Of a stretch of DNA of 64,000 nucleotides, positions 1 through 63,682 are shown piece by piece. Numbering within the stretch: the stretch's first letter is position 1; each line of letters starts with the position of its first letter. The position numbers and the translations under genes were made by a program. A model generated the notes under the pieces. The model was not told the DNA's origin, searched no databases, and was given only the letters and a program-made list of their open reading frames with translations. The DNA is from Ehretia macrophylla (lineage: Eukaryota > Streptophyta > Magnoliopsida > Boraginales > Ehretiaceae), in contig CM075770.1 of NCBI GenBank assembly GCA_037974665.1, positions 8,258,501-8,322,500 of the forward strand, written 5' to 3'.

Positions 1-310
1 GCACAATTGAACGAAATCAAAAGTTAAAGTAAAATATGTTACAGACAATTTTTCGTAATCCAATTCTGTATAATCTTGAAAAGCCACTGCACTCAAGACA
101 GAGTATCAGCAATCAAGAGATAAGTTGGAATGAATTTTACATCAAGTAGACTACAAAAACATTTTTTCCCAAAAGTGAAGGTATATCAGGGATATTATTC
201 GAAAAAGATCAACAAAAAGCTTAACGATGATTTCACAATCAGGTACAAACAAAGTTTTCATAGTACTTTTTATTTCGTCATTATAGGAGGTAGAGCCAGC
301 CTTTTGCAAT

Positions 311-1803
311 TTAACCCTCCAATGCTGATGCTCCAGATATAATTTCAATAAGCTCCCTTGTGATGGATGCTTGACGGGTTCTGTTGAAGAGAGAGAGAGA
401 ACAAATGCCGATCAGATTGTCGAATGAATAGCGCTATTCAAAACTCAATGCAGCTTATGACCTTAAAACCGAACACAGCTAGTGACCTTGAAACTAAAAA
501 TGCAGCTAATGACCTTGAAACTAGAGTACTAGTACAATTTAAGTCATCATAATCATTCTTATCCACTTAAAATACGATAATTGAAAGATAGACTTGTGAA
601 TTTGAAAAGTAAACATACACGAGAACTGGAATTCAGCAAGATTCTGAAGGATTTCTGACTTGGTCTCACCACCTTCTATTTCATAAGAGTCTAACTCACC
701 AAGCTTTCCACCAGATTCAGCTTCTCTCTCCACAATCTGGATAGGCATCACATCAAATTAGAAAATACAACTGAAGCATTTCCACTGAAACTCAATCAGC
801 AGAACTGTTCGAATTTACTTACCTCGGGGGACAACACAGTAGCTGTTGTTGGCACAAATGAGACAACTGACTGGAACTTGTTGAAAACAATCCTCAGGGC
901 GTCATACTCTACATTCTTCAGAATCTCATCTGCAAGAACAGAAACCTGTAAGGGCGCAACTTATATAGTCTAAGGGAAAAGAGGAGACAGGAAAACAATA
1001 TGGAGAATGAGCTAGCATTTTAGTTTTAGTAGACAGACTGCTGTCAATTTGACCAAAACATTCGTTCACCTAACAAAAAATTAGAAGGCTAGATTAAAGA
1101 AGATATGGTATATGATTGTTCCACAAGGATATCATTTTCTTCAATAAACCAAGGCTGATATCTATTTTTAGGTCACCTTGACAAGGGCAAGGATAGCGCT
1201 AGACACAGTCTTAAACTTTTTTATGGTCAAGTCTGGATGAACAAAAATTAGACATACTTCATTATTGGACCGCCATTTGTAAGCCAGTCCCAATCTAATA
1301 ATGCATGATTTAACAGCCAAAACCAGTCCCACAGTTCATCTTGACAGCCATCCACAGGTCTAGATCATACAAACAAGGGCTAAGAATACTGCAAAGGACT
1401 TAAAAGACAATGGCTGCAGAAGCACATCCAAATGCAAAGGTCTTTATTTTTATGCGGCAATTGGCAGAAGTAACCAGGGTATAGTTCAAGAAATTCTTCT
1501 GCAATTCAGTAATGAATAACTCAATGTCTTTCTTTGAGTCGCGCACCAACTGGGCCTTTGCCTTTTCTCCTAACATAACATACCAGTTTTCCTTTTCAGG
1601 TCCTGTAGAATGGTGCAATCATCAATAATCAATAAGCAATCCCGAAACATGGAAATAGAACTCAGCAGGACATCAAGCTTGAAAATTACCAGAATTCAGC
1701 TTATGAAGGGCCCTGCTTACTTTCACAGCTGTAGAATTAATTCCACCACATAGACCTTTGTCTGAAGAAATGGTAACAATAACATTCTTCTTGACATCAA
1801 CAC
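311..1803 (-). pseudogene. ATP3: Mitochondrial ATP synthase gamma-subunit gene, broken copy (C-terminal exons only)
   Basis: The gamma subunit is the rotating central stalk of mitochondrial F1-ATPase. Five exons can be read on the minus strand: 1690-1803 (SSDKGLCGGINST), 1475-1602 (GPEKE...GEKAKA), 823-945 (VSVLADEILKNVEYDALRIV), 619-736 (GGKLGELDSYEIEGGETKSE) and 311-380 (TRQASIT...SGASALEG, stop at 311-313). Each has plausible GT/AG borders and phases that agree with the plant gene. The exons for the N-terminus (targeting peptide and first helix) are absent. So is the penultimate exon (AMDSSSRNAGEMLDRLTLTYN), which should lie between 619 and 380 and does survive in the second copy near 28350. 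Some residues also depart from the conserved sequence (for example TREL for TTEL in the last exon). A POLAR-like 5' end sits upstream on the same strand. Family assignment is firm. That it is dead is inferred from the missing exons. Confidence 0.88.
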
Positions 1804-2783
1804 CTAACCCAACCCAAAGCCAATTTAGACGTAACTCCCAGATAAGCAAAAGGCTAGAAGACTGTAATATTAACTGACAAGAAAAAGTTATCTAAAGGAA
1901 AAAGTTGAAGGGCAATTAACAGCACAACACAATATGGTGAGGAGATATTAAGCTAATATTCCTTGGTACAGTAGATTCTAAAGCATATCAAATAAGAGGA
2001 TAGGACATTATCTTCTTCAAAAGAGGTGCAATTCTAGCAAAAAGAAGACATTCAACACTCAACTCAGAAATAGTAGCATAGTCAAAACCTCACACTCAAA
2101 AGAGTCCTCAATTTATAAAAGCCACTAAGCCCGTAGTCTGAATCCAGATAGATAAAGAAAATTTGAGCTGAGAGGAAAAGACTGAAAGTGTTTGCATTAG
2201 ATGTGAACCCTTAGGCAACACAAGTGAAATATTTAAACACAATTACAACGACAAAAAATTCAAATAAAAAAAATTCCATGAAATCTGGTTGGTTCTAGTT
2301 TGACTGCCAAAGTGATCTTCATTTGTTACGTTGGACAGCTTGCTTGATAACAGAGAATCTCTCATTAGTTGGAGTTTGTTGGATCATCATGCTAATTTTC
2401 CTTGTTTGAAGGCTCAAGTGGATTATCATTTTGGTTTGAATTTGTTGCTATTAGATCTCCAAGATCACTCAACTTCTCTCTACTGATTGAGGCTAGATCA
2501 TGAGAGTCTTCACCCTTTTTCTTCCAAGAATTTCAAGCATCCTTATCTCTCCATAGACTCTCATGATCGTTAGACACGCCAAGCAATGATATGTTGCTAG
2601 TAATAGAGAACATGAAAGATAAGGGAGAAGAAATAAGAATAGAAAAGACAACAAAAAACAAGAAAACTGGCAGACACAAAACAAAGAATAGGAAAAAAAA
2701 AAAAAAAAACGAAATTGCAACACTCTTAGCTCTAGAAGTCTGTCAGTTGGTGAACCAGCTAACGGTTTAGATTTTCTCTTTCG
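1804..2783. other. Spacer between POLAR-like and gamma-subunit pieces
   Basis: No exon I can name. On the minus strand about 2400-2515 there is a short asparagine-rich open stretch (LGDLIATNSNQNDN) that might be a degraded exon of the upstream gene, but nothing confirms this. An A-run lies at 2694-2709. The N-terminal gamma-subunit exons expected here are missing. Confidence 0.4.
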
Positions 2784-3224
2784 TTATTCTAGAAGTTTAG
2801 CTCTTCTTTGGAAATTCAAATCCTTGATTTTGGGCAGTTGAGAAACTCCATATACGGTCTTCCCTTGTGAATAAGTTTTCATATCCGGCTGTTCCTCCGC
2901 AGCTTCAAGAGGCAAACTCAAACAATCACCACTTCCTCTGCTGATAATTCTGCTTCCATCAGACACAAGAAATGGCCTTATAGTTGGTGTTCGTGGTGAA
3001 TGAACAGAACTAAATACATAATCTTCTATTTCAGCATGTTCCTTGTACAACTGGGCCATGAGACAACTTGAAAACTGCTAAAGTAGTAGTACTCTTTCAG
3101 ATACAGCTAAAGTAGGACTCTCAGTAAATGAACTTGAGAAATCCTGCCTACCCCTCAAAATATTCTTCCAATGCTGAGCTATATATCCAGCTCCAGCAGC
3201 TGCAGCAACAATCCAAACATCCAT
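2784..3224 (-). pseudogene. POLAR-like plant protein, 5' part, internally shortened and interrupted
   Basis: ATG at 3222-3224 opens MDVWIVAAAAGAGYIAQHWK, a hydrophobic start that I associate with a plant family related to POLAR (stomatal-lineage polarity protein). Further on in the same frame come SCLMAQLYKEHAEIEDYVFS, then TPTIRPFLVSDGSRIISR, segments I recall from the same family. The frame is interrupted by one TAG at 3078-3080 (codon 49) and ends at TAA 2784-2786. Compared with full-length relatives, most of the segment between the N-terminus and SCLMAQLY is missing, and so is the long C-terminal coiled coil. The second copy (28461) keeps only the first 24 codons, fused to gamma-subunit exons. 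The family name is from memory and moderately sure; that this is one broken gene is well supported by the shared frame. Confidence 0.62.
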
Positions 3225-3639
3225 TTTCCAACTCCCTTCACTGGAAAACTGCTAACTAATTCCAGACGACAAACCTTCTACTTCAGTTCTTAGCATCAAA
3301 GTCCCATAGGATAGTCCTTATCAAACTCAAACGACACAAGGCCGAGAAAATCCAACAGCCAAAACATAACCTCAATAAAACCAATAGTCAAATGTAAAAC
3401 AAATTGAATACTGCCCTATAATGCAGTTATGCTCCACAGTCAAAAATCAAGAGACAAGGTGAAATAAAGCTTCTAGCTATCAATCGAAGCCAAAAGCTTG
3501 AATCTTTACCCAACTTCTCACAAAATCCATTGCCAAAAAATAGAAATTTTCTCACACTGCAATAATCAAGAACCCGAGAAGACTACCTTGTTCAATCAAA
3601 TAACTTTCAGATAACAAAACTCTCTCAGAAACATCAACC

Positions 3640-4060
3640 CCCAAAAACCAATCGCTGAAATGACAACAAAAGAATCTAAAGCATAGCTATTTTCTGACAA
3701 TACCTGAACTGCAAAACCATTCACCACCAACTCATTTTTCTCTAAAACTCCATCTTATTACCGTAATCAACAACTCAAAAAACCAATGTTTGAAATGACT
3801 CCTAAAGAATCAAAAGCATACACATTTTCTGGCCATGCCTGAACTGCAAAACCATTCACCACCAACTCATTTTTCTCTAAAACTCCATCCTATCACCATA
3901 ATCAGCAACCCAAAAACCAATTTTTGGAATGACACCAGAAGAATCTAAAGCATACCCATCTTTTGGCCACATCTGAACTGCAAAAGCCATTCATCAAGAC
4001 CCAATTTTTCTACACAACTCCACAGTATTACCTCAATCAGCAGGCGCCCAATAAGGCCAT
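3640..4060. repeat. Minisatellite of about 130-bp units upstream of POLAR-like gene, copy 1
   Basis: Three to four imperfect units follow one another, each with the marks CTGAACTGCAAAACCATTCA, then a CTCATTTTTCTC-like tract, then AATCTAAAGCATACCCAT. The array lies just upstream of the POLAR-like ATG and is therefore 5' flank or 5' UTR. It recurs at the same place in the second copy (about 28875-29275), so it predates the duplication. Confidence 0.75.
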
Positions 4061-4849
4061 TAGTAAATTAATGAAGATAAACTTTGTAAAATAAAGGCAT
4101 CAATCGAAAACACCCATTTTCTTTACCAGAAAATCTCCTAATCCAACTAGAAATGCTTACTAGTAAAGAAAGAAACTGTTTGTGTGAAAAAGGTCAGAGC
4201 TTTTGTAAAAAGGTTGGTGAGAAATGTCATGTGCAGGCAAAATCTAAAGGGCCATTTTTCTAAAGGGTTTGTTTCTTATTTTTGAGAGTACAAGTTGTAG
4301 TTTCTGTATGTCAAGAGTACTAATCAATGGGGAAAAAAAAAGAAAAAAAAAATGAGAAAAGAACTGAAAAAATGATAATGTTAAATTGAAAAGTCTCCTG
4401 AAAGTGATGTCAATTTGTGTAATTTATAAATTTGACATTTATCCCCGTGTTAAGCTAACTTCAACAGTTTCTTTATTTTTGTTATATTTAAGGGATTTGA
4501 AGCATTTTTTCTATTTTTTGTAGATTTTCTATTTCAATTTTACTCTAACAACTCCTTTATTTTTAACCAATATCTTATTTTATAGAATCTCTATTTTAAT
4601 TTTACTCCAATAGCTCTCCTATATAAAAAATTTATACTTCTATAACATTAAAAATTATGGAGGATGAGATAGGAGAGGGATTTGATCTCCCAGCAATGAG
4701 GGATCCAAACTTCAAATCATTTATTTCCTAAAATATAAGGGATCATTTAGGAGAACTGTTGGAGCTATATAGCACCAACAACTTTATCAAATTTAATGAT
4801 TATAAATTATTGATAACAATATAAAAAATGATATAAATAATTTATAATC

Positions 4850-10132: not shown

Positions 10133-10774
10133 CTACAGCACCTCAGGCAAAACCTCAGCCCATAGGCCTTTGGGTACTACCAGCTTCTTTCTCAGACCCT
10201 GCAAAATAGATCTGTTAGTATTTTCCACTTGGCCATTAGTCTGTGGGTACGCTACAGAAGCAAATCTAAAAGAGATGCCTAATTCCGAGAATTGCTTCCT
10301 GAAATAATGGCAATCCAACTGGGTCCCGTGGTTTGTCACTATCACCCTTGGAATCCCAAATCTGCACACAACAGACTTCTACACAAAATTCCAAACATTT
10401 CTATCTATAGTCTTGGCTACGAGCTTGGCATCCACTCATTTAGTAAAATAATTCACTGCCACGAAGCACTTGACCCTCTGACATGTGCTCATCGAGAGAG
10501 GACCCAATATATCCAAACCCCACTGGGCAAAGGGACAGGGGCTCATCATCACAATCAAGTATGCTGTTGGTTGCCGTGGGATTCTCGAGAACCTCTGGCA
10601 TATATCATATTTCTGCACCAGGCGCTGAGTATTTTCATTCAGGGTCGGCCAGAAATACCCATACCTCAGTATCTTCCGAGCCAATGTTCTATAGCATCTA
10701 TGATTACCACAGATTCCTTCATGCATTTCCCTGAGTATATAATCTCCTTCACATTTATCTACACACCTCAACAT
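10133..10774 (-). pseudogene. Integrase region of gypsy element
   Basis: Two open blocks carry the integrase zinc-binding area (HEGICGNH...YFWPTL) and the core (GPLSMSTCQRVKCFVAVNYF and, beyond a gap, YPQTNGQVENTNRSI, the conserved QTNGQ.E core signature). Fossil, broken. Confidence 0.85.
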
Positions 10775-10904
10775 AGGCCAAGTATACTCTTTTCAATACA
10801 ATTGCTTTCTGAGCATTACATACTTTGGGGCTCATATTTTCACCTTCCTCGCCTCTTCACTGTCTTTTTGGTAAGGTTTCCTTTTCCAGGAAATCAACCA
10901 TAGG

Positions 10905-12399
10905 TTACATCCAGGATTCACTGTGCTCCACCTGGGCTACCTCTTTGTGCTCTCGAGCAATGCTCAGCTCGGACACCTTCCCTGTTAGCTTCTGAATATC
11001 TTTTACATTCCTGGGTGGCTCAAGATCTTGCACTTTCTCTGGATTGGCCTCGATCTCCCTCCGAGTAACCATGAAACCTAGGAATTTTCCTGCTTGAACC
11101 CCAAAAGCACATTTTTCAGGATTTAACTTGATGCTGACCTTCCTCATTATTGAGAATGCCTCAGATAGATCCTTAATGTGAGTCTCTGCCCTTTTACTCT
11201 TCACCAACATGTCATCAATATAAACCTCCATATTTTGCCCTAACTGCCCCTTGAATACCTTGTCCATCATGCGCTGGTAACAAGCCCCTGCGTTTTTCAT
11301 ACCAAATGGCATCACCGTATAACAAAACACCCCTCGGTCTGTTATGAATGCTGTCTTTTCCTCATCTTCTGGTGCCATCTTAATCTGGTTGTACCCTTTG
11401 AAGGCATCCATGAATGACAGCATCTCAAACCCTAAGGTGGCATCCACCATCTGATCTATCCTAGGCAAAGGCTAGTAGTCTTTCGGGCAGCCCCTATTCA
11501 AATATGTAAAATCTACACACATCCTCCAAGCTTTAGAAGGCTTAGGGACCATCACTATATTTGTCAACCAAGTAGGGTATTCCACCTCACGAATATGTCC
11601 AGCCCTCAACAGTTTGCTCACTTTTTCCCTGATTGCTCGGTTCTTTTCTGCAGGGAAGACCCATCTCTTTTGCTCCACAAGCCTGAATTTTGGGTCTACG
11701 TTCAGCCGATACATAACTATCTGCGGATCTATTCCTGTCATATCATGCATAGACTAAACAAATACATCTCTATTACAAGATAAGAAATGAGTTATACCTT
11801 CAGCTAGGCTTGGAGGAAGCTTTGTTTTGATCTGAACCTCTTTATCTACTGCTAATTCGACTTTATGTAACTTCTCTACAAGCTCTGCTTTTTTTTTCTC
11901 CCACCCTTTCTTGGCCTTTTTCTCGGGAATCTCAATTAATTCTCTCTCTTCTTTTTGCAACCTCAGGCAAGCTGCATAGCATTCTTGGGCTCTCCTCTGG
12001 TCCCCTTTTACTGTTACTGTACTAGCCTCTGACTGGAACTTCATCGCTAAATGATAGGTGGACACTACTGCCCTGAACTTTTCTAGTGCCACCTTTCCCA
12101 ATATCCAGTTATATGGTAACTCGCAGTCTACTACAATGAAATCCAACATCTCACTCCGGCCCTACTCATTCCGCCAGAGGGTCACCTTCAATGTTATCAT
12201 ACCCTCGGGTTATATTTTTCTGCCATTGAACCCTGACAAGGTTCCCTTCATCGCTCTCAGATGTTCGTTTCTCAAATATACTCAAGAACAGGACCTCTGC
12301 TGAGCTCCCTGTATTGACCATGATTTTGCGCACCACAATCCCACTGAAGTCCACTGCAATCACCACCGGATCATCATGGAATAACACCAAACCATCCAA
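10905..12399 (-). pseudogene. Protease and reverse transcriptase region of gypsy element
   Basis: An aspartic-protease-like block (VNTGSSAEVLF, about 12166-12399) is followed by RT blocks with SFMDAFKGYNQIKMAPED, YTVMPFGMKNAGACYQRMMD and the catalytic YIDDMLVKS. These are typical of plant Ty3/gypsy RT. Fossil, broken. Confidence 0.9.
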
Positions 12400-12945
12400 A
12401 TCCTCATCCCCAAAGGTGATATTTTCTTATACCCTTGGTCTTTTCATGGTGGTCTCTGCGAACTGCTCTGCGGTAACTTCTCTTGGCTTGTAGGTTCCCC
12501 CCCCTTCCCCGAGGCCATGCCCCCTGTTATCATGTCAATCTCCACCTAAGCGCGCACTATCTGAGTATGCCTCGTGCTCTTTTCCCTCTGCCTTCCCCCT
12601 TGGTTATCTCTCCTGACATAGGCTTGTAAGTGCCTACGCCTGATCAGAGCTTCAATCTCATCCTTCTAGTTCCTGCAAGCTTCAGTGTCATACCCAAAGT
12701 CTGTGATATCTGCAATACTGCCCTTTGTCTTTACGGCGTTCCTTCTCTGTCTTCATTTTTGGTGGATCCAGGAGGTTTATTCGTGTCCGGATTTCTGCCA
12801 GGATTTCAGATCTGGGCTTCACCAAAGGGGTATAGTTATGAAACCTCTGTAATCTAGGCGGTTCTCTTTTTTCCCTTCCTCTATGCTTCTGCCTACCCAC
12901 TTCTGCCTTTCTCTCTCTCTGGGCCACATGAGCTTGGTTGTTATG

Positions 12946-14049
12946 TCATTTCTTCCTAGGGTCTTCATCTTTCTCCGCTATCACTACCTCTTCTACCTTG
13001 ATGTACTTCTCCGCCCTGGTCATCAACTCTATCATGTTCAGGGAGGTCTTCTTGGCTAAAGAAGCCTCGAGCAACTCGTTCGTTACTCCCTTTGTGAATG
13101 CTTGTATCATGAACCTCTGGTCAAATTGCGTATACTGGAGGGTGGCCTCATTAAAGCGAGTTGCATACTGACGAAGAGTTTTCCCTTTTCTCTGCTTTAG
13201 ACCAAGCAAAGAAATAGTGTGCCGAGTCGGCCAAATGGCTGAGAAAAATCTTCCAACAAACAAATTTGCCAGCTGCGTATAGGAACTAACTGAGCCCTCC
13301 TTCAATTCATCATAGCATACCCTAGCCGCTTCCACTAAATTTCCAACAAAAGCCCTACACACCCAGGCCTCTGGCAGCTCTGTAAACTCTATTTTGTGCT
13401 TGAAAACCGCCAGATGATCTTTAGGGTCACCATGCCTATCATAGATGGGCAGATAGGGCAATTTTTACTGCGCGGGCTTTGTAACTTTGTTGATGGCATG
13501 GTTAAACGGATTTAGGCCTCTGAAAGTTCCTGCCACTGAGGCAGTACAAGTTGTACCTCCTCTTCGGACACTTTGTGATGGGCCTCGCTCTGTCGTGTTG
13601 GTTATATTTCTGGCTGATTGGGTTTTCTGATGTGAGGGATTTTATGGAGGTGCTTGTTGTGGCTGATTTTCTGAGTGGTGTGGTGCGGGTTGAGGTGCTG
13701 GGTTATGAATGTCTTTCTTTAATTCTTCCAGAGTTTGAAAAATATACCCTAAATCTGCCGGTGGGTTAGTTTGTGGGACTGGGGTTGGGGTGGTAAGATA
13801 TTGCCACCCTGCATACAACGCATGCCCTTGTGGATAGTTTTGAGAATAAGTTGGCAAATAATTTAGGTACAAATTTGTGTATGGGTTGATGTATGGTGGT
13901 CGGTTTCCCGCTGGAACCTCCACTCTTGGTGGCGGTGGATCGGCCTGCCTGGGGTTAGAGGTTTTCCCTAAACAGAACTGCATATTAGGCTGTTTTACGG
14001 CCTCTTCTTCATGTACACTTGCTACGCTTCGACTCCTTGTAGTAACCAT
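12946..14049 (-). pseudogene. Gag region of gypsy element
   Basis: The block 12946-13461 has the plant retrotransposon gag pattern (DPKDHLAVFK, RFFSAIWPTRHTISLLGLKQ, GKTLRQYATRFNEATL). The upstream block 13642-14049 is proline- and asparagine-rich, as N-terminal gag often is. Fossil, broken. Confidence 0.82.
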
Positions 14050-17541: not shown

Positions 17542-17991
17542 ATGGCCAAGTGTTCCACGTCGTCGGATCTTGAAGCTGCAGCAGCTGAAGATGAGCCACA
17601 AGCCGATAATCATCCTCAACGTAACCAGCTGCAATGGGCAGCACTAGTTGTAGCCTTTTGTCTCTCTTCAGCTGTCCAAAATCCTCATCAAACCAACCAA
17701 ACAGGTATTAGGGTGTCGTCGTCCTTTATCTCCTTACAATTCCACTTATTTCGCCTTACCCTAGTCTTTGCTGTGTCTGCCATGTTCATGGCAACACAAC
17801 TATCTCTCAAGTTTCCGAATACAGCGCGTTTTCTGGAGCATTTAGTGGTCCTTTTTGGGATCACGGCCTTCTTTCTCATTGTGAGCGACTCATTTCCTCT
17901 GGGTTTTAAGATCGCAACTTGGACGATTTACGGTATCCTTCTTTCGGCAGCTTTCTTCTGCAAAATCTACGAATATAAATGCAAACCATAG
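17542..17991 (+). CDS. Small multi-pass membrane protein, unknown family, member 1
   Basis: An intact single-exon ORF of 149 codons. The first third is hydrophilic and acidic (SDLEAAAAEDEPQADN). Four hydrophobic segments follow: about residues 32-47 (ALVVAFCLSSAVQ), 65-88 (FHLFRLTLVFAVSAMFMAT), 98-118 (HLVVLFGITAFFLIVSDSF) and 122-143 (GFKIATWTIYGILLSAAFF). A short charged tail ends it. I do not recognise the family and assign no function. Closely related sequences lie at 63194 (most of the membrane part shared) and 57698 (dead fragment). The 3' flanks also match (ATGAGC.GACTCATAATAATTAAAA here and at 63740), so the whole unit was duplicated. It starts MAKCSTSS, unlike the MGNTTS start of the other two. 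ORF confidence is high because the protein sequence is conserved between copies. Confidence 0.8.
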   Translation: MAKCSTSSDLEAAAAEDEPQADNHPQRNQLQWAALVVAFCLSSAVQNPHQTNQTGIRVSSSFISLQFHLFRLTLVFAVSAMFMATQLSLKFPNTARFLEHLVVLFGITAFFLIVSDSFPLGFKIATWTIYGILLSAAFFCKIYEYKCKP

Positions 17992-25459: not shown

Positions 25460-25959
25460 GAGCAAATTGGACAAATAGTCCCCATTGTTTATAAATTTTG
25501 GACAAATAGTCCCTATTGTTTCACAAGTCATTCCGTTAGTCCCTATTGTTTGCAAAAGTCCCACAATTAGTCCTCATTGTTTGCAAAAGTCCCACAATTA
25601 GTCCCCATTGTTTGCAAAAGTCACTCAATTAGTTCCCATTGTTTGTAAAAGTCACTCAATCAGTTCCCATTGTTTGCGAAAGTCACTCAATTAGTCCCCA
25701 ATGTTTGTTGCAAAACCTTAGGGACTGATTGAGTGACTTTTGCAAACAATGGGGACTGATTGAGTGACTTTTGCAAACAATGGGGACTAATTGAGTGATT
25801 TTTGCAAACAATGGGGACTAATTGTGGGACTTTTGCAAATAATGGGAACTAACGGAATGACTTGTGAAACAATAGGGACTATTGGTAAAATTTTTACAAA
25901 CAATAGAGATTATTTGTCAAAAATTTATAAACAATAGGGACTATTTGTAAGATTTGCCC
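25460..25959. mobile_element. MULE-type MITE built of two opposed arrays of about 32-bp repeats
   Basis: The 9-bp direct repeat AAACTATAA flanks it (25451-25459, 25960-25968). Ends: left GAGCAAATTGGACAAATAGT, right reversed GGGCAAATCTTACAAATAGT. Each arm holds about seven units of AGTCCCCATTGTTTGCAAAA plus a short linker, and the second arm is the reverse complement of the first, meeting near 25710. The whole element can fold into one large hairpin. No ORF. Confidence 0.85.
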
Positions 25960-27065: not shown

Positions 27066-27921
27066 GTGTGTATTTCTTCAACTCTATATAAGTGTTCTCT
27101 TAATTATGTATTTTCTCTCTCATTGTAAGATTATTGTGGAAAATCATTTTCTCTCTTTTACCCAATGAAAGTTAAATAGCAACGTCAACGATTTTTCACT
27201 TTCTCTTGGCATTTGACTTAGAAATGAAAAACTCTTCAGTCAATCTATACTATTGTCAACATCTCACCTATTAGTAATCAAACAGTCTAGACTGATATCA
27301 ACCTCTCACATATTAATAAAATTCATACGTATAAATTTCACCAACAATGTGATAGAATCTGATTTTTCCCCTAAATATTAGCTTTTACTGTCCTCGAAAA
27401 AAGTATGCTACTTTTATGTGTGCTTTCTTCACAACTCTCTTCCTAATTAGTAATTTGACATGCTCTTATATTTTTCTTTCTTATTTTTGAGAAAGCACTC
27501 AACAATATCGGTCGTGCTTTTCCATTTTTTATGTTTGAAAATGAAATCCTATTAAGAAATTCAAATCGAAACATATATTTGGATACAACAAATCAAGAAC
27601 AATTTCTGCTTAACAGATTATAAAAATGCACAATAGAACGAATTGAAAAGTTAATAAGTAAGAAAAGTTATAGACAATTTTCTGTAATCTTGAAAGAGTC
27701 TGCATTCAAGAGAGAGTATCATCAATCAAGAGATTAGTTAGAATGAATTTTACATCATGTAGACTACAAAAGCATTTCTCCCAAAAGTGAAGGTATATCG
27801 GGGATATTATTCGAAAAAAAGATCAACAAAAAGCTTACGATGATTTCACAATCAGGTACAAACAAAGCTTTTATAGTACTTTATTTCGTCATTATAGGAG
27901 GTAGAGCCGGCCTTTTGCAAA

Positions 27922-28461
27922 TTAACCCTCCAATGCTGATGCTCCAGGTATAATTTCAATAAGTTCCGTTGTGATGGATGCTTGACGGGTTCTGTTGAAG
28001 AAAGAGAACAAATGCCGATCACATGGTCGAATGGTTAACGCTATTGAAAACTCAATGCAGCTTATGACCTTAAAACTGAACACAGCTAGTGACCTTGAAA
28101 CTAAAAATGCAGCTAATGAGCTTGAAACTAGAGTACTAGTACAATTTAAGAACAGTAGACATTCTGCGTTCAACACCGTCAAGTTCACTCAATAGGTATT
28201 GACAACTAATAACATGTCATGGAAGCATCAACCAGTTGTCACCAAAAAGAGGACGTAGTTCCTGAGAGCGAGTGTGTGTGTATGTGCATACGTGTGAGAG
28301 ACAGAGAGAGAAAAAAACCTGTTGTAAGTAAGGGTGAGGCGATCAAGCATTTCACCAGCATTTCTGCTGGAGCTATCCATTGCAGACATCCTCAAAATAT
28401 TCTTCCAATGCTGAGCTATATATCCAGCTCCAGCAGCTGCAGCAACAATCCAAACATCCAT
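27922..28461 (-). CDS. Chimeric gene: POLAR-like N-terminus fused in frame to ATP synthase gamma C-terminus
   Basis: Exon 1 is 28319-28461 and exon 2 is 27922-27991, separated by a 327-bp intron. Exon 1 opens with the 24 POLAR-like residues (MDVWIVAAAAGAGYIAQHWK, NILR) and passes without a break into MSAMDSSSRNAGEMLDRLTL, TYN of the gamma subunit. The donor AACAG|GTTTTTTT joins the acceptor TTCAACAG|AACCCG in the phase of the parent gene and restores NRTRQASIT...GASALEG and a stop at 27922-27924. Exons total 213 nt, exactly 71 codons, so the product would be 70 residues: a short hydrophobic lead followed by the C-terminal helix that in intact gamma sits inside the alpha3beta3 ring. The fusion point lies at AGG, shared by both parents. 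The upstream flank is that of the POLAR-like gene. Expression and function are unknown. It could be a young chimeric gene, or a deletion product that happens to stay open. Confidence 0.6.
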
Positions 28462-28874
28462 TTTCCAATTCCCTTCACTGGAAAACTGCTAACTAATTCT
28501 AGACGACAAACCTTCTACTTCAGTTCTTAGCATCAAAGTCCCATAGGATAGTCCTTATCAAACTCAAACGACACAAGGCCGAGAAAATCCAACAGCCAAA
28601 ATATAACCTCAATAAAACCAATAGTCAAATGTAAAACAAATTGAATACTGCCCTATAATGCAGTTATGCTCCACAGTCAAAAATCAAGAGACAAGGTGAA
28701 ATAAAGCTTCTAGCTATCAATCGAAGCCAAAAGATTGAATCTTTACCCAACTTCTCACAAAATCCACTGCCAAAAAATAGAAATTTTCTCACACTGCAAT
28801 AATCAAGAACCCGAGAAGAATACCTTGTTCAATCAAATATTTTTCAGATAACAAAACTCTCTCAGAAACATCAA

Positions 28875-29275
28875 CCCCCAAAAACCAATCGCTGAAATGA
28901 CAACAAAAGAATCTAAAGCATACCTATTATCTGACCATACCTGAACTGCAAAACCATTGGTGAACAACCCATTTTTATGAAAAAATCCATCTTATTACCA
29001 TAATCAACAACTCAAAAAACCAATGTTTGAAATGACACCTAAAGAAACAAAAGCATACCCATTTTCTGGCCATGCCTAAACTGCAAAACCATTCACCAAC
29101 AACTCATTTTTCTCTAAAACTCCATCCTATCACCATAATCAGCAACCCAAAATCCAATCTTTGGAATGACACCAGAAGAACCTAAAGCATACCCATCTTT
29201 TGGCCATACCTGAACTGCAAAAACCATTCATCAACAACCAATTTTTCCACACAACTCCACAGTATTACCTCAATC
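28875..29275. repeat. Minisatellite of about 130-bp units, copy 2
   Basis: The same array as at 3640-4060, upstream of the chimeric gene ATG. Units share CTGAACTGCAAAACCATT and AAAGCATACCCATTTT. Confidence 0.75.
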
Positions 29276-31254
29276 AGCAGATACCCAATAAGGCCATTAG
29301 TAAATTAATGAAGATAAACTTAGTAAAATGCAGACATCAATCGAAAACACCCATTTTCTTTACCAGAAAATTACCTAAATCCAACTAGAAATGCTTAGTA
29401 GTAAAGAAAGAAACTGTTTGTGTGAAAAAAGGTCAGAGCATTTGTAAAAAGGTCGGTGAGAAATGTCATGTGCAGGCAAAATCTAAAGGGCCCCAAGTTT
29501 TTTCTTATTTTTAATGGTTTTTGGGGTGTGGAATCTTTTACAGCCTCTGCTGATTTGCCGTTATCTACAAAGAGTGGGGAGAGAGTACAAGTTGAAGTTT
29601 CTCTATGTCAGAATACTAGTGAAGGGTTATTCTTCTATAAAGTATATGATAAATTTATTATATTTATATAGATAAAAAATAATTTAATTAGTTAATAAAT
29701 ATTAATCAATTATTATAAGTAAAAATATCATAATAATTTATTTAAAATTGTGTAAGGCTAAATTAGTAAAAAATTTTTTTTGAACATTTTGATATAATAT
29801 ATTTGTACGATACAGATTAATGTGGATTAATTTTATAAAATAACAACTTAACATATAGTTGTGACAGATTTACCACATGTCTCATAGAAGAATTAATCAA
29901 TGCAAAAAAAGGAAAAAAAAAATGAAGATGAAAAGAAGAATGGGAAAAATGATAATTTCTAATTGAAAAGTCTCCTGGAAGCGATGTCAATTGTGTATAC
30001 AAATTTGACATTTACCTTGAGTTAGGGATAGATATAACGATTACAAATTATTAATATTTATATAAAAAATTTATAATTATTAAATTTTGTTCTAGGTAAT
30101 TTTGTATCCTCATTTTTGCATCAATGCAATATTTTGACTAAAAAAAAGAATCAAGGCTTTAACCTTTTTATTAATTAGAAAATGTTCGTTAGTTAATATC
30201 TTATTTTCCCTTTAAATTTATATGGACGGGGAGTGGTTTTGGAATATAAAAATCATGAATATATTTGACACATTAAGTTTTTTTTTTTTAAAATAATCGT
30301 CGATAATGTTATGACTTATTATATTGTATATTAAATAAATTTTATAACAATATAGGTAAAATGTAAATTCCGAGTTTCATAATGTCAATTCCTTATTTTT
30401 TAACGATCTAATCACTCATCCATCTTTGATAAGTAACTAGCATTGTCCCTGTGCGATGCACGGGTGTGGTAGTAATATATAGTGACTCTAAGTAATTTAT
30501 CAATTTATCAATTTTTTAATTACGTTATTTAAAAACTATAATATGTAGTTATTCTGAATAATTTACCATTACTAAAGAAACCAAATAAAGTAAGCAATAG
30601 CATACATCGAACTTTTTACTTCAGTAAAAAAAAGATCGAACCTTTCAAATGACACATATATCTCCTTTCTTCGAATTGTTATTTTTACAAAATTCACGAT
30701 GACACTCTTACTCTTTCTACATGTGATCTACTTGTAAATAATTTATCTTTTATCATCAAAAGTTTGAATGTTCCAATGGCTAAAAAATATGTTGTGACCT
30801 TACATAGATATGCTTCTTAACAAAAGATACTGAGATACATCGTACTATGCAAAGAATTATTATTTTGATCAACTTGAACATACACTCAAAAAATATCATG
30901 GACTACCTAGCAAATATTATAATTGATGGTTGTAATGTATTCAAATCTACATAGATTTGTTATCGCTTTCAATTGACAAATATGTCTCATTAGTTTGAAA
31001 TGCATTAGTAATATTTAAAGTAGATTTGTTTTTATGACCTAAGTGAAATTTAAATAACTGAACAAATCACCTGAGAAGTCACATGGTATAAGACTTTATT
31101 TTTATTGCTAACATCACATTATAAGATAAACAATAATGAATAAGGAACATAAACATATTAAATCGAATCTATGATCAAAATAATAAGAGATACATATTTG
31201 GCTAATTTATTATTTAAGATTCTTCTTTGAAAATCATATTGGTTGTAGTCTTTA

Positions 31255-36300: not shown

Positions 36301-36316
36301 TTAGAATATATAATGA

Positions 36317-37790
36317 TTCAGGATAAATAAATAACCAATCAACTTTATGTTTCTATAATTAGTAATGGTTTAGTCAAATAGGTTTGAATGTTAATTTATA
36401 CGTGCTAATGGATATTGGTTACTAGTCATTATTATACAATACAAACAAATAAAAAGAACAAAAGAAGAAGAAGAAGAATATGGCAACTAGCTTCTTTGTA
36501 TATGCTTGGATGATCTTGAAACTATTAAGGAAATCCATTATTAAATTAATTTTTCATCTAATGATTTAAGTTTTAAGTGCGAAATTTATTATTTTCAATA
36601 TATATGAGGGGAACGTTGTATTAAGTAATTATCTCCAACCTTATAAAGAGGGCCAATCTAAAATGTTTTAAATATATGACAAGGAGAAAGTCTTCTAGAG
36701 AACAAGAAAATAGTAAGTATTCACCATTTTATTAGCACAGGACATAAATAGTTGTAGTTGAGACTGTTGAGTTATAAGATGCATTTTGCCATTGTCTTGC
36801 ATATTACATAATCTGCATGTGGGGTATCGCGACAAAACAGGCTCTCACTATCTTTTAACTCAACGAGATTAGTTTAGTAGCGAAATATTTAAAATACGAG
36901 GGAGAAATTTGTTCACATTTTAAATGTGAATTGGTAAATAAGTTTTCAGTACACCTTGTATTTAATTAATTTGAATTATATCTTTTCTAAACAAATTATG
37001 AATTTCGGAGTTTGACATCTTACATAAGCTCTTAAAGAAATTTTCAATCAACAAAAACCAAAAAAAAAAATGAGAAGAAAAGCCTGTTATCGCCAATGGG
37101 GGAGATGTTCAAAGGTTAGTAGGGGCTGTAACTTTCACAGTAATTTTTAATTTTTTTTGAAAATATGTGGATCATAAATATTTTTAGTATGAAAAGTCAA
37201 TTTAACTCCTGGTGCTTGACGAAAGGATCCAGATTCCACAATATGCTGTGGGCTGGCTAAAAAAAAATTATCCATATATAAATATTAAATTGTATATTTT
37301 GACTTTATTGAACAAAAATTTTAAATTCGTCCTTAATTATCACCTATAGTAAGTAAAGAAGGTTGCCCCACAGGCCCAATTGTACTAAATGGTATTAGGG
37401 CAAGTTCAATGGAGTCTTTAAATTTAGAGACTTTCCAAATTTGGGTGTTCCAAACCTATTTCTAGAGCCCCAAGCCTAAAAAGCAACACTATTCATGACA
37501 AAAGTACGTATGGTCTACCACTTTTAACTTAAAAGATGTCATAATAGAGCCCCAATCTAAATTTTGGGCTCTAAATTTGTTGAACAGGGATCTATTTTGG
37601 CATCTTTTAAGTCAAAAGTGATGGACTCCACGTACTTTTATCATAAATAGTATTACTTTTTAAGTTTAGGACTCTAAAAATAGGCTTAAAACACCTAAAT
37701 TTAAAAAGTCTCTAAATTTGAAGCCTCTAGAGAATGGCCTTATGTGATGATTGTGATCGTGGGTTGTGTGAACTTACTCGAACAAGAGGG
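36317..37790. repeat. Segmental duplication D1, copy b (right part)
   Basis: Continues copy b to the right of the Helitron and matches 5775-7432 and 60515-61690, interrupted by the Tourist-like MITE at 37398. It lacks the segment around 6310-6950 of copy a. No gene. Confidence 0.82.
37398..37739. mobile_element. PIF/Harbinger (Tourist-like) MITE with TTA target duplication
   Basis: Starts GGGCAAGTTCAATGGAGTCT and ends CTAGAGAATGGCC. The arms are inverted copies (TTTAAATTTAGAGACTTT at both ends). TTA flanks it at 37395-37397 and 37740-37742. D1 copies a (7397) and c (61625) have the empty GGTATTATGTGAT. Same family as 22518-22824. Confidence 0.9.
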
Positions 37791-41966: not shown

Positions 41967-42167
41967 TGTAAAGATGTAATTTCCCCTACTATTATGGGAT
42001 TCTTTCATTCATATTTATAACAATTACAAGATAAACTTTACAGTTTGAATTGCTATTCATGATATGCGAGAATATAAGAAGATAACTACAGAAGTTACAA
42101 GCTTATGTTTCATGTGCATAGGACTCTAACTGTCCTTTGGATAATTGCGGCTGATCATCACTTAACA
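41967..42167 (-). repeat. 3' LTR of copia element
   Basis: On the minus strand GTGGGAGGG (polypurine tract) is followed by TGTTAAGTGATGATCAGC, and the LTR ends TTACATCTTTACA: TG...CA form, about 201 bp. The right-hand LTR is missing. Confidence 0.75.
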
Positions 42168-44573
42168 CCCTCCCACAAGCTGAGGGTGGAGGAAGCACCG
42201 AGAGGTTGTCACGAAGTAGCTCGAATCGCGGCTTGAAGAGTGGTTTAGTGAATATGTCAGCAAGCTGGTCGCTCGTGAGAATATACTTGATTTGTAAAAT
42301 GCCATCAATAATCTTTTCTCTGACAAAATGGACATCGATTTCGATGTGTTTGCTGTGGTTATGAACGATCGGATTGCTGGCCATGTAAATTGAACTCACA
42401 TTGTCACTCAAAATCGTGGAGCAGGTCTGTTTGAGGCGAAGAAAATCCATGACATGACGAACCCATAAGATTTCAAAAGTAAGAGCAGCAATGGCGCGAT
42501 ATTTAGCCTCGTAGGTGGATTTGGAAACCGTTTGCTGCTTCTTCGAGCTCCATGTAATAATATTTTGGCCTAGGTATATTGTATAGCCAGTGGTTGAACG
42601 ACAAGTAGTTGGGCACCCGGCCCAGTCTGTGTCACAATAACTTGTGAGACTCATGTCATGAGTTGCAGTGAAACGAAAACCAAAATCAATAGTGTGCTTG
42701 ACATATCGTAAGATCCTCTTGGCAGCCACGAGATGTGATATACAAGGAGCTTGCATGAATTGACACACAGAGTTTACAGTATATGATAGGTCTGGACGAG
42801 TCATCGTGAGATATTGTAGTGCACCTATGAGTTGTCTATATTCCATGGGATCAGCCAAAAGATCACCATCCAAAGGAGTTAAGCGTGTGGAAGCCATCAG
42901 AGTGGAGACGGGTTTCGCACCGTTAAGACCGAATTGCTGGAGCAATTGAATTGAATATTTGCTTTGAGTTAGCAGGAGATGATCATTATGATGCTTAATT
43001 TCCATTCCCAAAAAAAAATGCAACTGCCCAAGGTCTTTCATGTCGAATGAGTTGGAAAGTTGTTGAATAAATGACTGAATATTATGTATGTCATCCTCTG
43101 TGATAACTATGTCATCGACATAGATAAGAGGAATAATAATATGATCCTAGGAATGACGGACAAATAGAGATGCATCGTGATGAGAATGAGCAAAACCACA
43201 AGAAAGCAAAAAAGAGCTGAATTTATGATACCATGCGCGCGGGGCCTGTTTTAGGCCATATAATGATTTGTGCAACTTGCAAACATAGTCAGGATAATTA
43301 GAATCCACGAAGCCTTGCGGTTGATGCATGAAAACTGTCTCTGAGAGATCGCCATGCAAAAATGCATTTTTGACATTGAGTTGGCGAAGAGGCCATTGCT
43401 TTGAGAGAGAGAGACTAATAACCAATCGAATAGTTCCAGGTTGAACAACGGGGCTAAAAGTGTCCCCGTAATCATGTCCGGGTTGCTGGGTAAACCCTTT
43501 TGTGACTACTAACCAAGCTTTGAGCCGTTCCAGAGAACCATTAGATTTTTGTTTCACTTTGTAGACGCACTTGCATCCTACTACATTCATATGGGAAGAC
43601 CGATGAACCAAAGACCACGTTTGATTTTTCAGTAGCGAATTAAACTCTTCAGTCATTGCCTTACGCCATCGAACATCTTTTTGAGCTTGAGTAAAACAAG
43701 TTGGCTCAACGAGCAAGTTGCTGATAGTCGAAACTAAGCAGTGCGGAAGCGGGTATCGAGTCGAGAGAAGTACTCGAGGCTTATGAGTACTATCCATGGA
43801 GCGAGTAACTATTGTATGGGTATGATTGGGCTGAGGAGGCACAAAAGAGAGTGGCAAAATAGAGTCTGAATTTTTAATAGGAGCAACATCAGACTATGGC
43901 CTTGAATAAGCATATTTCATTTGTGAAACATCATGTTGGTGCATGAAATCAGGTGTAGTAGGTGAATGAATTGGAAAGTGTCCCGATAGAGTATTAGATT
44001 GATCATCAAGTTGGGAATTTGGAACAGCGAGCGGCAAAGAAGCGGTTGTAGATGAGGAGGGCACGAGAACATCAGATGGTGGAGTAGAAGGAGTATTGAC
44101 AAAATCTTGAGGCAACAATTTGTGAGGAAATGGTTTTATAGTTAATGTCTTTCCAGTAGAGCCTGAAGGTGCAAAAATGACTGAAGGAAACTTAGCTTTA
44201 TCAAATACCACATTGCGAGAGATGATAATTTTCTGAGTAACAGGGTTGTAACATTGAAATCCCTTATGAAGAGGGCTGTACCCAACAAACACACATGGAC
44301 AAGTCTTGAAATCCAGCTTGGTACATCAAAAAGTGTCCAGGCAGGGAAAACACAATGATCCAAAGACACACATGGAAGAATAATCTGGCACAATATTATA
44401 TAACATCTCATATGGCGACTTGTTGTGTAAAGTAGGAGTCGGCAAGCGATTGATGAGATAAGTAGTCGTAGCGAAGGCATAAACCCAAAACTGCTGTGGA
44501 AGTCAACTATGAGCTAATAAGGAAAGTCCCGTTTCTACAATATGCCGATGTTTTCTCTCTGCGACCCTGTTTT
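41967..44573 (-). mobile_element. Ty1/copia element, Ale/Retrofit-like, 5'-truncated, broken
   Basis: A fossil on the minus strand. In order: end of integrase (about 44140-44573; AERKHRHIVETGLSLLAH), linker, reverse transcriptase (43147-43857) and RNase H (42103-43041), then a 3' LTR (41967-42167) preceded by a purine tract. RT and RNase H show FLHGDLSETVFMHQPQGFVD, SLYGLKQAPRAWY and KSTYEAKYRAIA. The protein reading runs into the LTR, as in Ale elements. The 5' LTR, gag, protease and start of integrase are absent where the next element begins (44574). Broken, with several breaks. No age from LTR comparison is possible. Confidence 0.88.
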
Positions 44574-59246: not shown

Positions 59247-59789
59247 TTAAATGTAACAAATATTACACATTTTGTTTTATAATATGTCAAAATTCGAATT
59301 TGTACTCTTTTTTTTTTTCTAGTAGAGGCTTAAGGCCAAACATATATTGTTATATTTTGTGAATTGTTACGTTAAGAAGATAGCAAAAACACTCACAATT
59401 CGGAACCCATTTTAGTAATTTTTCATGCCTAAAGGCTACTTTTATCTTTTCTCACAACTCTCATTTTTTTTTTTAGAAAAAAAAGATAGCACAAGCTAAT
59501 TGTTTATCGTTGAGGGGTGTTTTAGACTTTTGCAATGCTATTTCTTTTTTTCTTTTTTTTTGTTCAGTGGTGCATGTATTGGTCTTTGACAATGCCACTT
59601 TTGTCTTCATTCAATAATATTTTATATACATAATCTTATTATTAATACAGGAGTAAAATGGCCATTCCGTTTTTTAACATGCCTGACCCACAATAATCTT
59701 TGCCACGCGTCGAGCGTCTATTGGTTTGCTTGTCTTGTCTCACGCGGCTGAAATGATGCAGATGGATGGAAGATTTTTGCTGAAGTTTC
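59247..59789. other. Non-coding stretch
   Basis: T-rich runs at 59309, 59468 and 59540. No gene or repeat edge supported. Confidence 0.4.
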
Positions 59790-61690
59790 TGTATGTCAGA
59801 ATACTAATCAATGAGGAAAAAAGAAAAAAGAAAAACAAAGGATGAAAAAGAGAATGGAGAAAATGATAATGTTTAATTGAAAAGTCTCCTGAAAGGTGAT
59901 GTTTTTGTGTAATTTATAAATTTGACATTTACCTCGAGTTAGGAATGAATTTGTTTATAATATTATAATATTATGAATAAAATTTAATGATTATAAATTA
60001 TTAGTATTAATATTAAAAATGATATAAACAGTTCGCTGTAAATTATTGGTACCAATATAAAAAAAATTAGTTAAACAATTTACAATTATTGAATTCTCTT
60101 CATGGCGTAATGATTTAGTCTACAAGAATGTGGTAAGTTTTTTTTTTTGGTCATTAGAATGTGGTAAGTTTGTATCCTCGATTTTGCATCAATGCAATTC
60201 TCATTTCGACCAAAAACCAAAAAATCAAGGCTTTGACCTTTTTATTAATTAGAAAATGTTCGTAAGTTAGTATCTTATTTTTCCTTTAAATTTATATAAC
60301 CGATTGCGATAGGTTTTGGAATATAAAATTTATGAGTATATTTGACATACTAAGATTTTTTTTGAAAAAAAAAATTATTGTTGATGATGTTTTTGACTTT
60401 TTCTTTTGTACATTAAACAAATTTTATAACAATATAGATAAAAGGTAAATTTCGAGTTTCATAATGTAAATTCCTTATTTTTCTTAACGATCTAATTGCT
60501 CATTCATCTTTGATAAGTAATTCATGATAAATAAATTACCAATCAGCTTTACATTAGTCAAACAGGTTTGAATGTTAATTTATATGTGCTAATGGATATT
60601 GGTTACGAGTCATTATTATACGAACATATAAAAATAAAATAAAAGAAGAATAACAATATGATAACTAGGTATATGTTTGGATGATCTTGAAACTATTAAT
60701 TGAATACATTATTCAATTACTGTTACATTTAACGTTTTAAGCTCTTTGTGCATAATTTATTATTTTCAACATATATGAAGTTGAACGTTGTATTAAGCAA
60801 TATCTCCAATCTTATAGAGATGGCCAATCTAAATGTTTTAAATATTTTTAAATGACAAAGAGAAAAGTCTTCTAGAGAACAAGAAAATAGTTACCATTCA
60901 CAATTTTATTAGCACAGGACTTAAATATTTGTAGTTGAGACTGTTCAGTTATAAGATGCATTTTGCCATTGTCTTGCATATTACATAATCTCCGTGTGGG
61001 GCTTAGACTATAAAACATAATAAGAATATTGGTTGCTGGACCTCGTGCACCCAACATAAATCGTAAAAATAATATTATAATACTATTAATTTATGATAAC
61101 AGATCCATCGCCCCAAAACAGGCTCTCACCATCTTTTAACTCTACGAGATTAGTTTAGTAGCGAAGTATTTAAAATTTAGGGGAGAGATTTGTTCACATT
61201 TTAAATGTGAATTGGTAAATAAGTTTTCAGTAGACCTTGTATTTAATTAATATGAATTATGTCTCTTCTAAACAAATCATAAATTATAGAGTTTGACATC
61301 CTACATAAGCTCTTAATAAAAAAATTTCAATCAACAAAAACTAAAAAAAAAGAAGAGAAGAAAAGCCTATCATTGCCAATGGGGGAGCCGATCAATGATG
61401 AGTAGGGGCTGTAACCTGCACTCTAATTTCTATTTTTTGAAAATATGTGTAATATAAGTATTTTTAGTCTAAAAAATTAATGTAACACCTACTAAAAAGG
61501 AATTATTTATATATAAATATTAAATTATATATTTTAACCACACTGAATAAGAATTCTGAATTTGCTCTCAATCATCCCCTTAGTATGTAAAGAAGGTTCC
61601 CCCATGGACTCAATTGTACTAAATGGTATTATGTGATGATTGTGATCGTGGGTTGTGTGAACTTACTCGAACAAGAGGGGAATCTTATTA
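59790..61690. repeat. Segmental duplication D1, copy c
   Basis: Collinear with 4299-7432 and with copy b but free of the insertions found in those copies. It therefore gives the empty sites for the Helitron (60508), the Tourist-like MITE (61625) and the MULE MITE (61017). No gene. Confidence 0.85.
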
Positions 61691-63193: not shown

Positions 63194-63682
63194 ATGGGCA
63201 ACACTACAAGTCATGAGCTGAAGCAATATATTCTCTCCATGAGAGCAAAACTTGAGTCTCTGTTTCCCACATCTGACCACCCACAGTCATCAACTGAAGA
63301 AATTGATCATGAGCAGCTCCAAGCCATACCACCCATCGATAGTCATCCTCAACAACGTAACCAGCACCTGCAATGGCCAGCAATAGTTGCAACCTTTTGT
63401 CTCTCTGCAGCTCTCCAACAACTTCCTCGAACATTTATCTCCTTACAACTCCACTTATTTCGGCTTGCCCTAGTCTTTGCTGTGTCTGCAATGTTCATGG
63501 CAACACACCTATCTCTCAAGTTTCCAAACCAAGCACGTTTTCTGGAGCGTGCTGGGGTCCTTTTTGGGATCACAGCCTTCTTCCTCATTGCCAGCGACTC
63601 ATTTCCTCTCGGGTTTAAGATCGCAACTTGGACCATTTACGCTATCCTTCTTTCCGTTTGCTTTCTTCTGCAAATTCTTTGA
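63194..63682 (+). CDS. Small multi-pass membrane protein, unknown family, member 2 (C-terminus altered)
   Basis: A single-exon ORF of 162 codons. It starts MGNTTS, which fits an N-myristoylation signal (Gly2, Ser6). A hydrophilic N-terminal region with an acidic stretch (STEEIDHEQLQ) is followed by four hydrophobic segments like those of the gene at 17542: AIVATFCLSAALQ, LFRLALVFAVSAMFMAT, GVLFGITAFFLIASDSF and GFKIATWTIYAILLS. After ILLS the reading departs from member 1 (AAFFCKIYEYKCKP) into VCFLLQIL and stops. The neighbouring frame continues AFFCKFFEYWKP...GLDIYIS to a TAG at 63732-63734. One extra base near 63657 (GTTTGC against the expected GTTGC) explains this. So the gene is either newly truncated or the base is an error. 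The 3' flank matches member 1. Function unknown. Confidence 0.72.
   Translation: MGNTTSHELKQYILSMRAKLESLFPTSDHPQSSTEEIDHEQLQAIPPIDSHPQQRNQHLQWPAIVATFCLSAALQQLPRTFISLQLHLFRLALVFAVSAMFMATHLSLKFPNQARFLERAGVLFGITAFFLIASDSFPLGFKIATWTIYAILLSVCFLLQIL

Follow-up and report, generated by a model that had tools for sequence, protein, structure and literature searches.

A chimeric gene, in which the start of a POLAR-like gene is joined in frame to the end of a gene for the mitochondrial ATP synthase gamma subunit, is located on the minus strand of the analyzed window, a stretch of 64,000 nucleotides (C7:8258501-8322500). The chimera probably represents a head-to-tail junction from the tandem amplification of a block carrying both parents, sealed at the four bases GAGG, with a product that is most likely inert. 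On this reading it falls, as an ordinary case, within a well-known class, the chimeric genes formed by tandem duplication, and is not a new kind of gene. The gene content of the window was read by us as plant-type, and homologous sequences were searched for in the 1.58 Gb genome (20 contigs).

Positions 28461-28319 spliced to 27991-27922 give a frame of 213 nt, i.e. 70 codons and a single stop at the end, made up of 24 POLAR-like codons followed by 46 codons of the gamma tail. Coding exon 1 (28319-28461, 143 nt) starts with the ATG at 28461 and contains the POLAR-like codons (28461-28390), followed by sequence of the penultimate gamma exon as far as the donor. It is followed by the last gamma intron (27992-28318, 327 nt, GT-AG) and by coding exon 2 (27922-27991, 70 nt), which is the last gamma exon including the stop. 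The 71 codons including a stop that were given in an earlier note on this DNA were recovered when the frame was recomputed across the 28319/27991 splice. Its description of 24 POLAR-like codons running unbroken into the penultimate gamma exon was likewise borne out, by the matches of both parents on C7 and by the Pfam and PDB gamma matches. The gamma-derived segment, including 3' flank, extends over 27620-28393 (minus strand, 92% identity to C7:8446161-8446946), and the POLAR-like-derived segment, consisting of a leader of about 1.16 kb and 72 coding nt, over 28390-29618 (minus strand, about 93% identity to C7:8242679-8243905). Residues 23-68 matched the Pfam family ATP-synt (PF00231; 2.3e-20) and also PDB gamma chains, and residues 1-24 correspond to the N-terminus of a protein of 310 residues whose coding sequence runs on C7 from 8242750 downwards. 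Homology of both halves is certain.

For this 310-residue parent, which we take to be a member of the POLAR-like family, no Pfam family was found at E-values of up to 1. Its relatives on C15 (300 aa) and C4 (a 327-aa open stretch) resemble it at the start and share a conserved central region, which is FIKPLSSLESCLMAQLYKE in the C7 copy and is present in related form in the C15 and C4 proteins. The chimera itself could be assigned to neither parental family: it covers profile positions 240-285 of the 285 of the gamma family and has a POLAR-like N-terminus, and the conserved central region of the approximately 310-residue C7 copy is absent from it.

The fusion point (28390-28393, minus strand) consists of GAGG, a 4-bp microhomology common to both parents. 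The POLAR-like parent reads ...TTTTGAGG and then GGTAGG, the gamma parent ...GGAGC and then GAGGATGTC, and the chimera ...TTTTGAGGATGTC across the junction. In the predicted product, the residues at the junction are NILRMSAMD. The AGG closing the 24-codon lead is an AGG codon of gamma as well (A-R-M in gamma, L-R-G in the POLAR-like parent), and since it is an in-frame codon in both, the frame was kept, for which a join inside two exons has a chance of one in three. The break lies within a coding exon of both parents. In gamma it had been placed at the start of the penultimate exon; it is actually inside this exon, of which the first 50 nt or so are gone, a rough figure because the exon start was read by eye from CAG. 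An exon-exact or retrotransposed fusion was ruled out, as the break falls within an exon of each parent and the gamma intron has been retained. The preservation of phase by donor and acceptor, also pointed out earlier, is intact, but it does not stand as independent evidence, because gamma supplied the splice sites, the stop and the 3' flank. Single substitutions that break the frame number 40 of the 639 possible, and, over the range of rates assumed, the open frame would survive neutrally at the observed divergence with a probability of approximately 0.22-0.85. That the frame is open is unremarkable.

The parents had been proposed to be neighbouring genes, and they do adjoin on C15, where gamma (24261-24256k) is located upstream of the POLAR-like gene (ATG 24244634) on the same strand. 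No extra gamma tail or POLAR-like copy was found beside this pair among the matches listed. The same order is seen for the outermost full-looking copies on C7, gamma at 8450-8446k, judged from its open exons without a formal gene model, and POLAR-like at 8243-8241k. A plain deletion between two single neighbours, the origin suggested in the earlier note, is excluded by this order, since it would give the reciprocal fusion of gamma 5' to POLAR-like 3'. With gamma upstream of POLAR-like, the chimera requires a tandem duplication, which may have been the entire event or have preceded a later deletion.

On C7, a block of gamma, a small membrane-protein gene and POLAR-like is repeated over about 200 kb in full, partial and broken copies. 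The pieces span 8241k-8450k, with copies 91-96% alike, in an array for which the sequence read leaves out most of 8332k-8442k. Gamma pieces are located at 8381k, 8378k, 8350k, 8330-8326k, 8286k (the chimera) and 8261-8258k. POLAR-like pieces are found at 8383k (3' flank), 8320-8318k (promoter), 8296-8287k (promoter pieces and the chimera) and 8266-8261k (promoter and pseudogene), and membrane-protein copies at 8444k, 8426k, 8378k, 8360k (other strand), 8345k, 8322k, 8276k and 8256k. In our reading, these pieces would be the debris of tandem amplification of the gamma - membrane-protein gene - POLAR-like block. A second POLAR-like copy within the window (2793-4283, minus strand) is a pseudogene with in-frame stops and an internal deletion. 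Its 3' coding part runs into the intron of a broken gamma copy (1-2794, minus strand), which is without the penultimate exon and runs off the window start; the two shared bases at this second POLAR-like-to-gamma junction (2793-2794, minus strand) are TT. The intron of the broken gamma copy also carries an insertion (2156-2602) with query bases 1826-1833 on both sides, resembling an 8-bp target-site duplication. A further POLAR-like promoter copy is located at 59781-61309 (minus strand, 89% identity to the parent over 1573 aligned columns), and no POLAR-like body was matched behind it when the POLAR-like 5' region was used as query. Outside the window, the POLAR-like 3' flank at 8383.4-8383.6k is followed by gamma at 8381k.

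The membrane-protein genes of the block (17542-17991 and 63194-63682 in the window, both on the plus strand) may have been the driver of its amplification. Matches with at least 51% identity over at least 129 residues were found at 12 places on C7, including the query, in 8256k-8530k and 9321k-9328k; 11 of the 12 are stop-free within the match. Neither of the two copies tested against Pfam reached the cut-off.

The probable course of events would be the tandem duplication of a segment from inside the penultimate gamma exon to POLAR-like codon 24, with the duplicate ends sealed by end joining at the GAGG microhomology. The outcome would be gamma upstream, POLAR-like downstream, and in between POLAR-like 5' joined to gamma 3'. 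The in-frame join would be due to chance (one in three), splice sites, stop and 3' flank would come from gamma, and the damaged POLAR-like promoter may drive transcription. A single tandem duplication with these two ends gives the chimera directly and leaves both parents outside, and both do flank it on C7 in the order predicted by head-to-tail duplication (3' donor upstream, 5' donor downstream, same strand). As expected of a chimera derived from tandem duplication, both parental parts are identifiable and further units of the duplicated block are present. Divergence from the parents is alike in the two halves, with 58/1142 (5.1%) in the leader and 12/278 (4.3%) in the gamma intron. The two junctions differ in their breakpoints and both show short overlaps, which fits end joining during repeated duplication, and we infer a single-step duplication rather than a duplication followed by a deletion. 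The second of these routes is a possible but clearly less probable origin. It would require that a duplication put POLAR-like upstream of gamma and that a later deletion removed the sequence from POLAR-like codon 24 to the penultimate gamma exon, again with a product that is most likely inert. An adjacency of the needed kind is present at window position 2793, C7 8383-8381k holds another trace of one, and arrays of this type often undergo deletions with short overlaps. However, this route takes one extra step, and the pseudogene copy at 2793 is nearer to the parent (33/1050 leader differences) than to the chimera (53/1061), so that the junctions seem not to derive from one earlier junction, although these distances are not decisive. 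The private leader sites of the three POLAR-like copies (36, 17 and 16 of 1050, with 36 in the chimera) make the copies nearly equidistant, and several of those in the chimera are grouped within internal repeats, at leader positions 636-662. Rooting of the copies with C15 was dropped as uninformative: of 213 well-aligned sites, one grouped parent with pseudogene copy and one grouped chimera with pseudogene copy. The order of events is not proven, because of the part of the array outside the sequence read. It is highly improbable that the junction is an assembly error or a collapsed repeat. The locus is rich in repeats as similar as those of this array, where assemblies can err, but the chimera has private differences on either side of the junction, and homologous sequence continues for hundreds of bases in both flanks.

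The claim that the gamma helix came under another gene's promoter holds in part. The POLAR-like leader is retained in the chimera, but a dispersed repeat of about 290 bp (29620-29910) interrupts the proximal promoter, and the next homologous promoter piece follows after a gap of 5.9 kb. An upstream promoter piece at 30095-30436 (minus strand) is 84% identical to C7:8244218-8244576, and its continuation is displaced to 36310-36824. Owing to this split and gap, transcription is possible but not assured. For the repeat, 42 genome matches were obtained, namely itself, 40 others (at least 239 bp, 82-89% identity) and one short match; as 40 of 818 candidates were scored, its copies are more numerous. 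The leader contains 26 ATGs if unspliced and a plausible GT donor at 29374. Its ends are better conserved towards C15 than its middle, which suggests that a 5' untranslated intron may be present.

Changes private to the chimera in a three-way comparison amounted to 36/1050 in the leader and 0/72 in the POLAR-like codons. In the gamma part, where a site was scored strictly, only if all other copies agree, there were 3/276 in the intron, 1/72 in the 3' flank and 1/145 in the coding sequence; the simple-repeat part of the intron (4/49) was left out of the expectation. One private coding change was observed compared with about 4.1 expected (P approximately 0.085). This change, TCT to CCT in coding exon 2, is non-synonymous (Ser to Pro at residue 63, in the gamma tail); the aligned codon is Ser in all six other copies and in two PDB sequences, and Ala in two chloroplast-type gammas. 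In pairwise comparison with the C7 gamma gene, the chimera differs at 0/75 and 2/70 exon sites and at 12/278 intron sites, and one of the two exon differences is a synonymous change of the C7 gamma gene itself. The partial copies at 8326k (exon 1/145, intron 11/267) and 8350k (last exon 1/70, intron 10/168) are as conserved in their exons as the chimera, and the broken copies at 8259k (last exon 3/70, intron 13/175) and 8378k (exon 6/112, intron 31/214) are less so. With the four controls divided in this way, the low exon divergence of the chimera says little either way. A reading of selection from it was not accepted in view of this P value and of the equally conserved copies at 8326k and 8350k. 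Weak constraint would nevertheless be compatible with the deficit of private coding changes and with the more changed exons at 8259k and 8378k.

The predicted product of 70 residues is without the gamma N-terminal helix, the globular part and a transit peptide, and its hydrophobic lead, with a maximum of 0.84 in the 19-residue Kyte-Doolittle mean, is weak for a membrane span. As a loose tail fragment outside the mitochondrion, it would be unlikely to matter and is most likely inert. No sign of chimera function was seen in the sequence analysis, and nothing in it supports translation or an encounter with F1, which the earlier note had raised as conceivable. That the chimera is instead a functional young fusion gene, maintained by selection and combining a POLAR-like expression pattern and lead with the gamma tail as cargo, seems unlikely. 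The open frame, inherited splice sites and retained leader would agree with it, as would the deficit of private coding changes and the more than 44% of fusion genes that are expressed in rice (PMC9199173). On the other hand, the deficit reaches a P of just about 0.085, the lone change introduces a proline into the helix tail, the two partial gamma copies named above are as conserved in their exons towards the C7 gamma gene, the promoter is interrupted and the transit peptide is absent. Very unlikely, in its full form, is a nuclear gene with an age of perhaps a few million years that would yield a POLAR-like-led gamma-tail peptide in POLAR-like-expressing cells and be retained through an effect on F1 assembly or membrane attachment; this age is rough, being derived from the 4-5% noncoding divergence and a general substitution rate.

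In Drosophila yakuba, chimeric genes have been described that arise from tandem duplications ignoring gene boundaries (PMC5460883). The present chimera is alike in that one gene's 5' part was joined to a neighbour's 3' part through tandem duplication, but it is in a plant, older and embedded in a decaying multi-copy array. Type I fusion genes of Oryza are those with both parents detectable; 35 of 69 expressed fusion genes in japonica were of this type, and two of the 35 had both parents in the same region (PMC9199173). As in that type, both parents of the present chimera occur in the genome, within a single region, and duplication preceded or accompanied the fusion. In contrast to that type, the join is a breakpoint inside exons and not a changed splice site. 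A narrow literature search found no fusion genes or chimeric duplications of the plant ATP synthase gamma gene, which does not imply their absence from print. In cytoplasmic male sterility, mitochondrial chimeric ORFs hold pieces of ATP synthase subunits. These likewise are fusions containing part of an F1Fo subunit; the present chimera differs from them in being nuclear, in carrying the gamma tail and not a mitochondrially encoded subunit, and in having no transit peptide and no phenotype attached.

With both parents present, readable junction letters and a second junction in one array, the locus illustrates cleanly that tandem amplification can yield an in-frame chimera with no need for selection. 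An open and splice-competent frame says little for a new gene if one parent supplies every downstream signal. Should the chimera be expressed, copy-by-copy comparison within the array would make it possible to date the first stages in the life of a fusion gene.

Pieces of the gamma 5' region, comprising an early exon and the part upstream, were also found on other contigs with 86-93% identity, at C14:43064814-43065795 and C1:119073819-119074950. Further fragments of this region are located at C15:26182126-26182880, C15:26170248-26170710, C1:92710417-92710632 and C1:94168735-94168949, and the scattered pieces look as if they had been captured by a mobile element. Two ORFs on the minus strand of the window (10436-14049 and 42103-44480) resemble, by eye, gypsy-type and copia-type retrotransposon polyproteins, respectively. 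A large inverted repeat at 25502-25948, with about 78% identity to its own reverse complement, is built of short tandem units.
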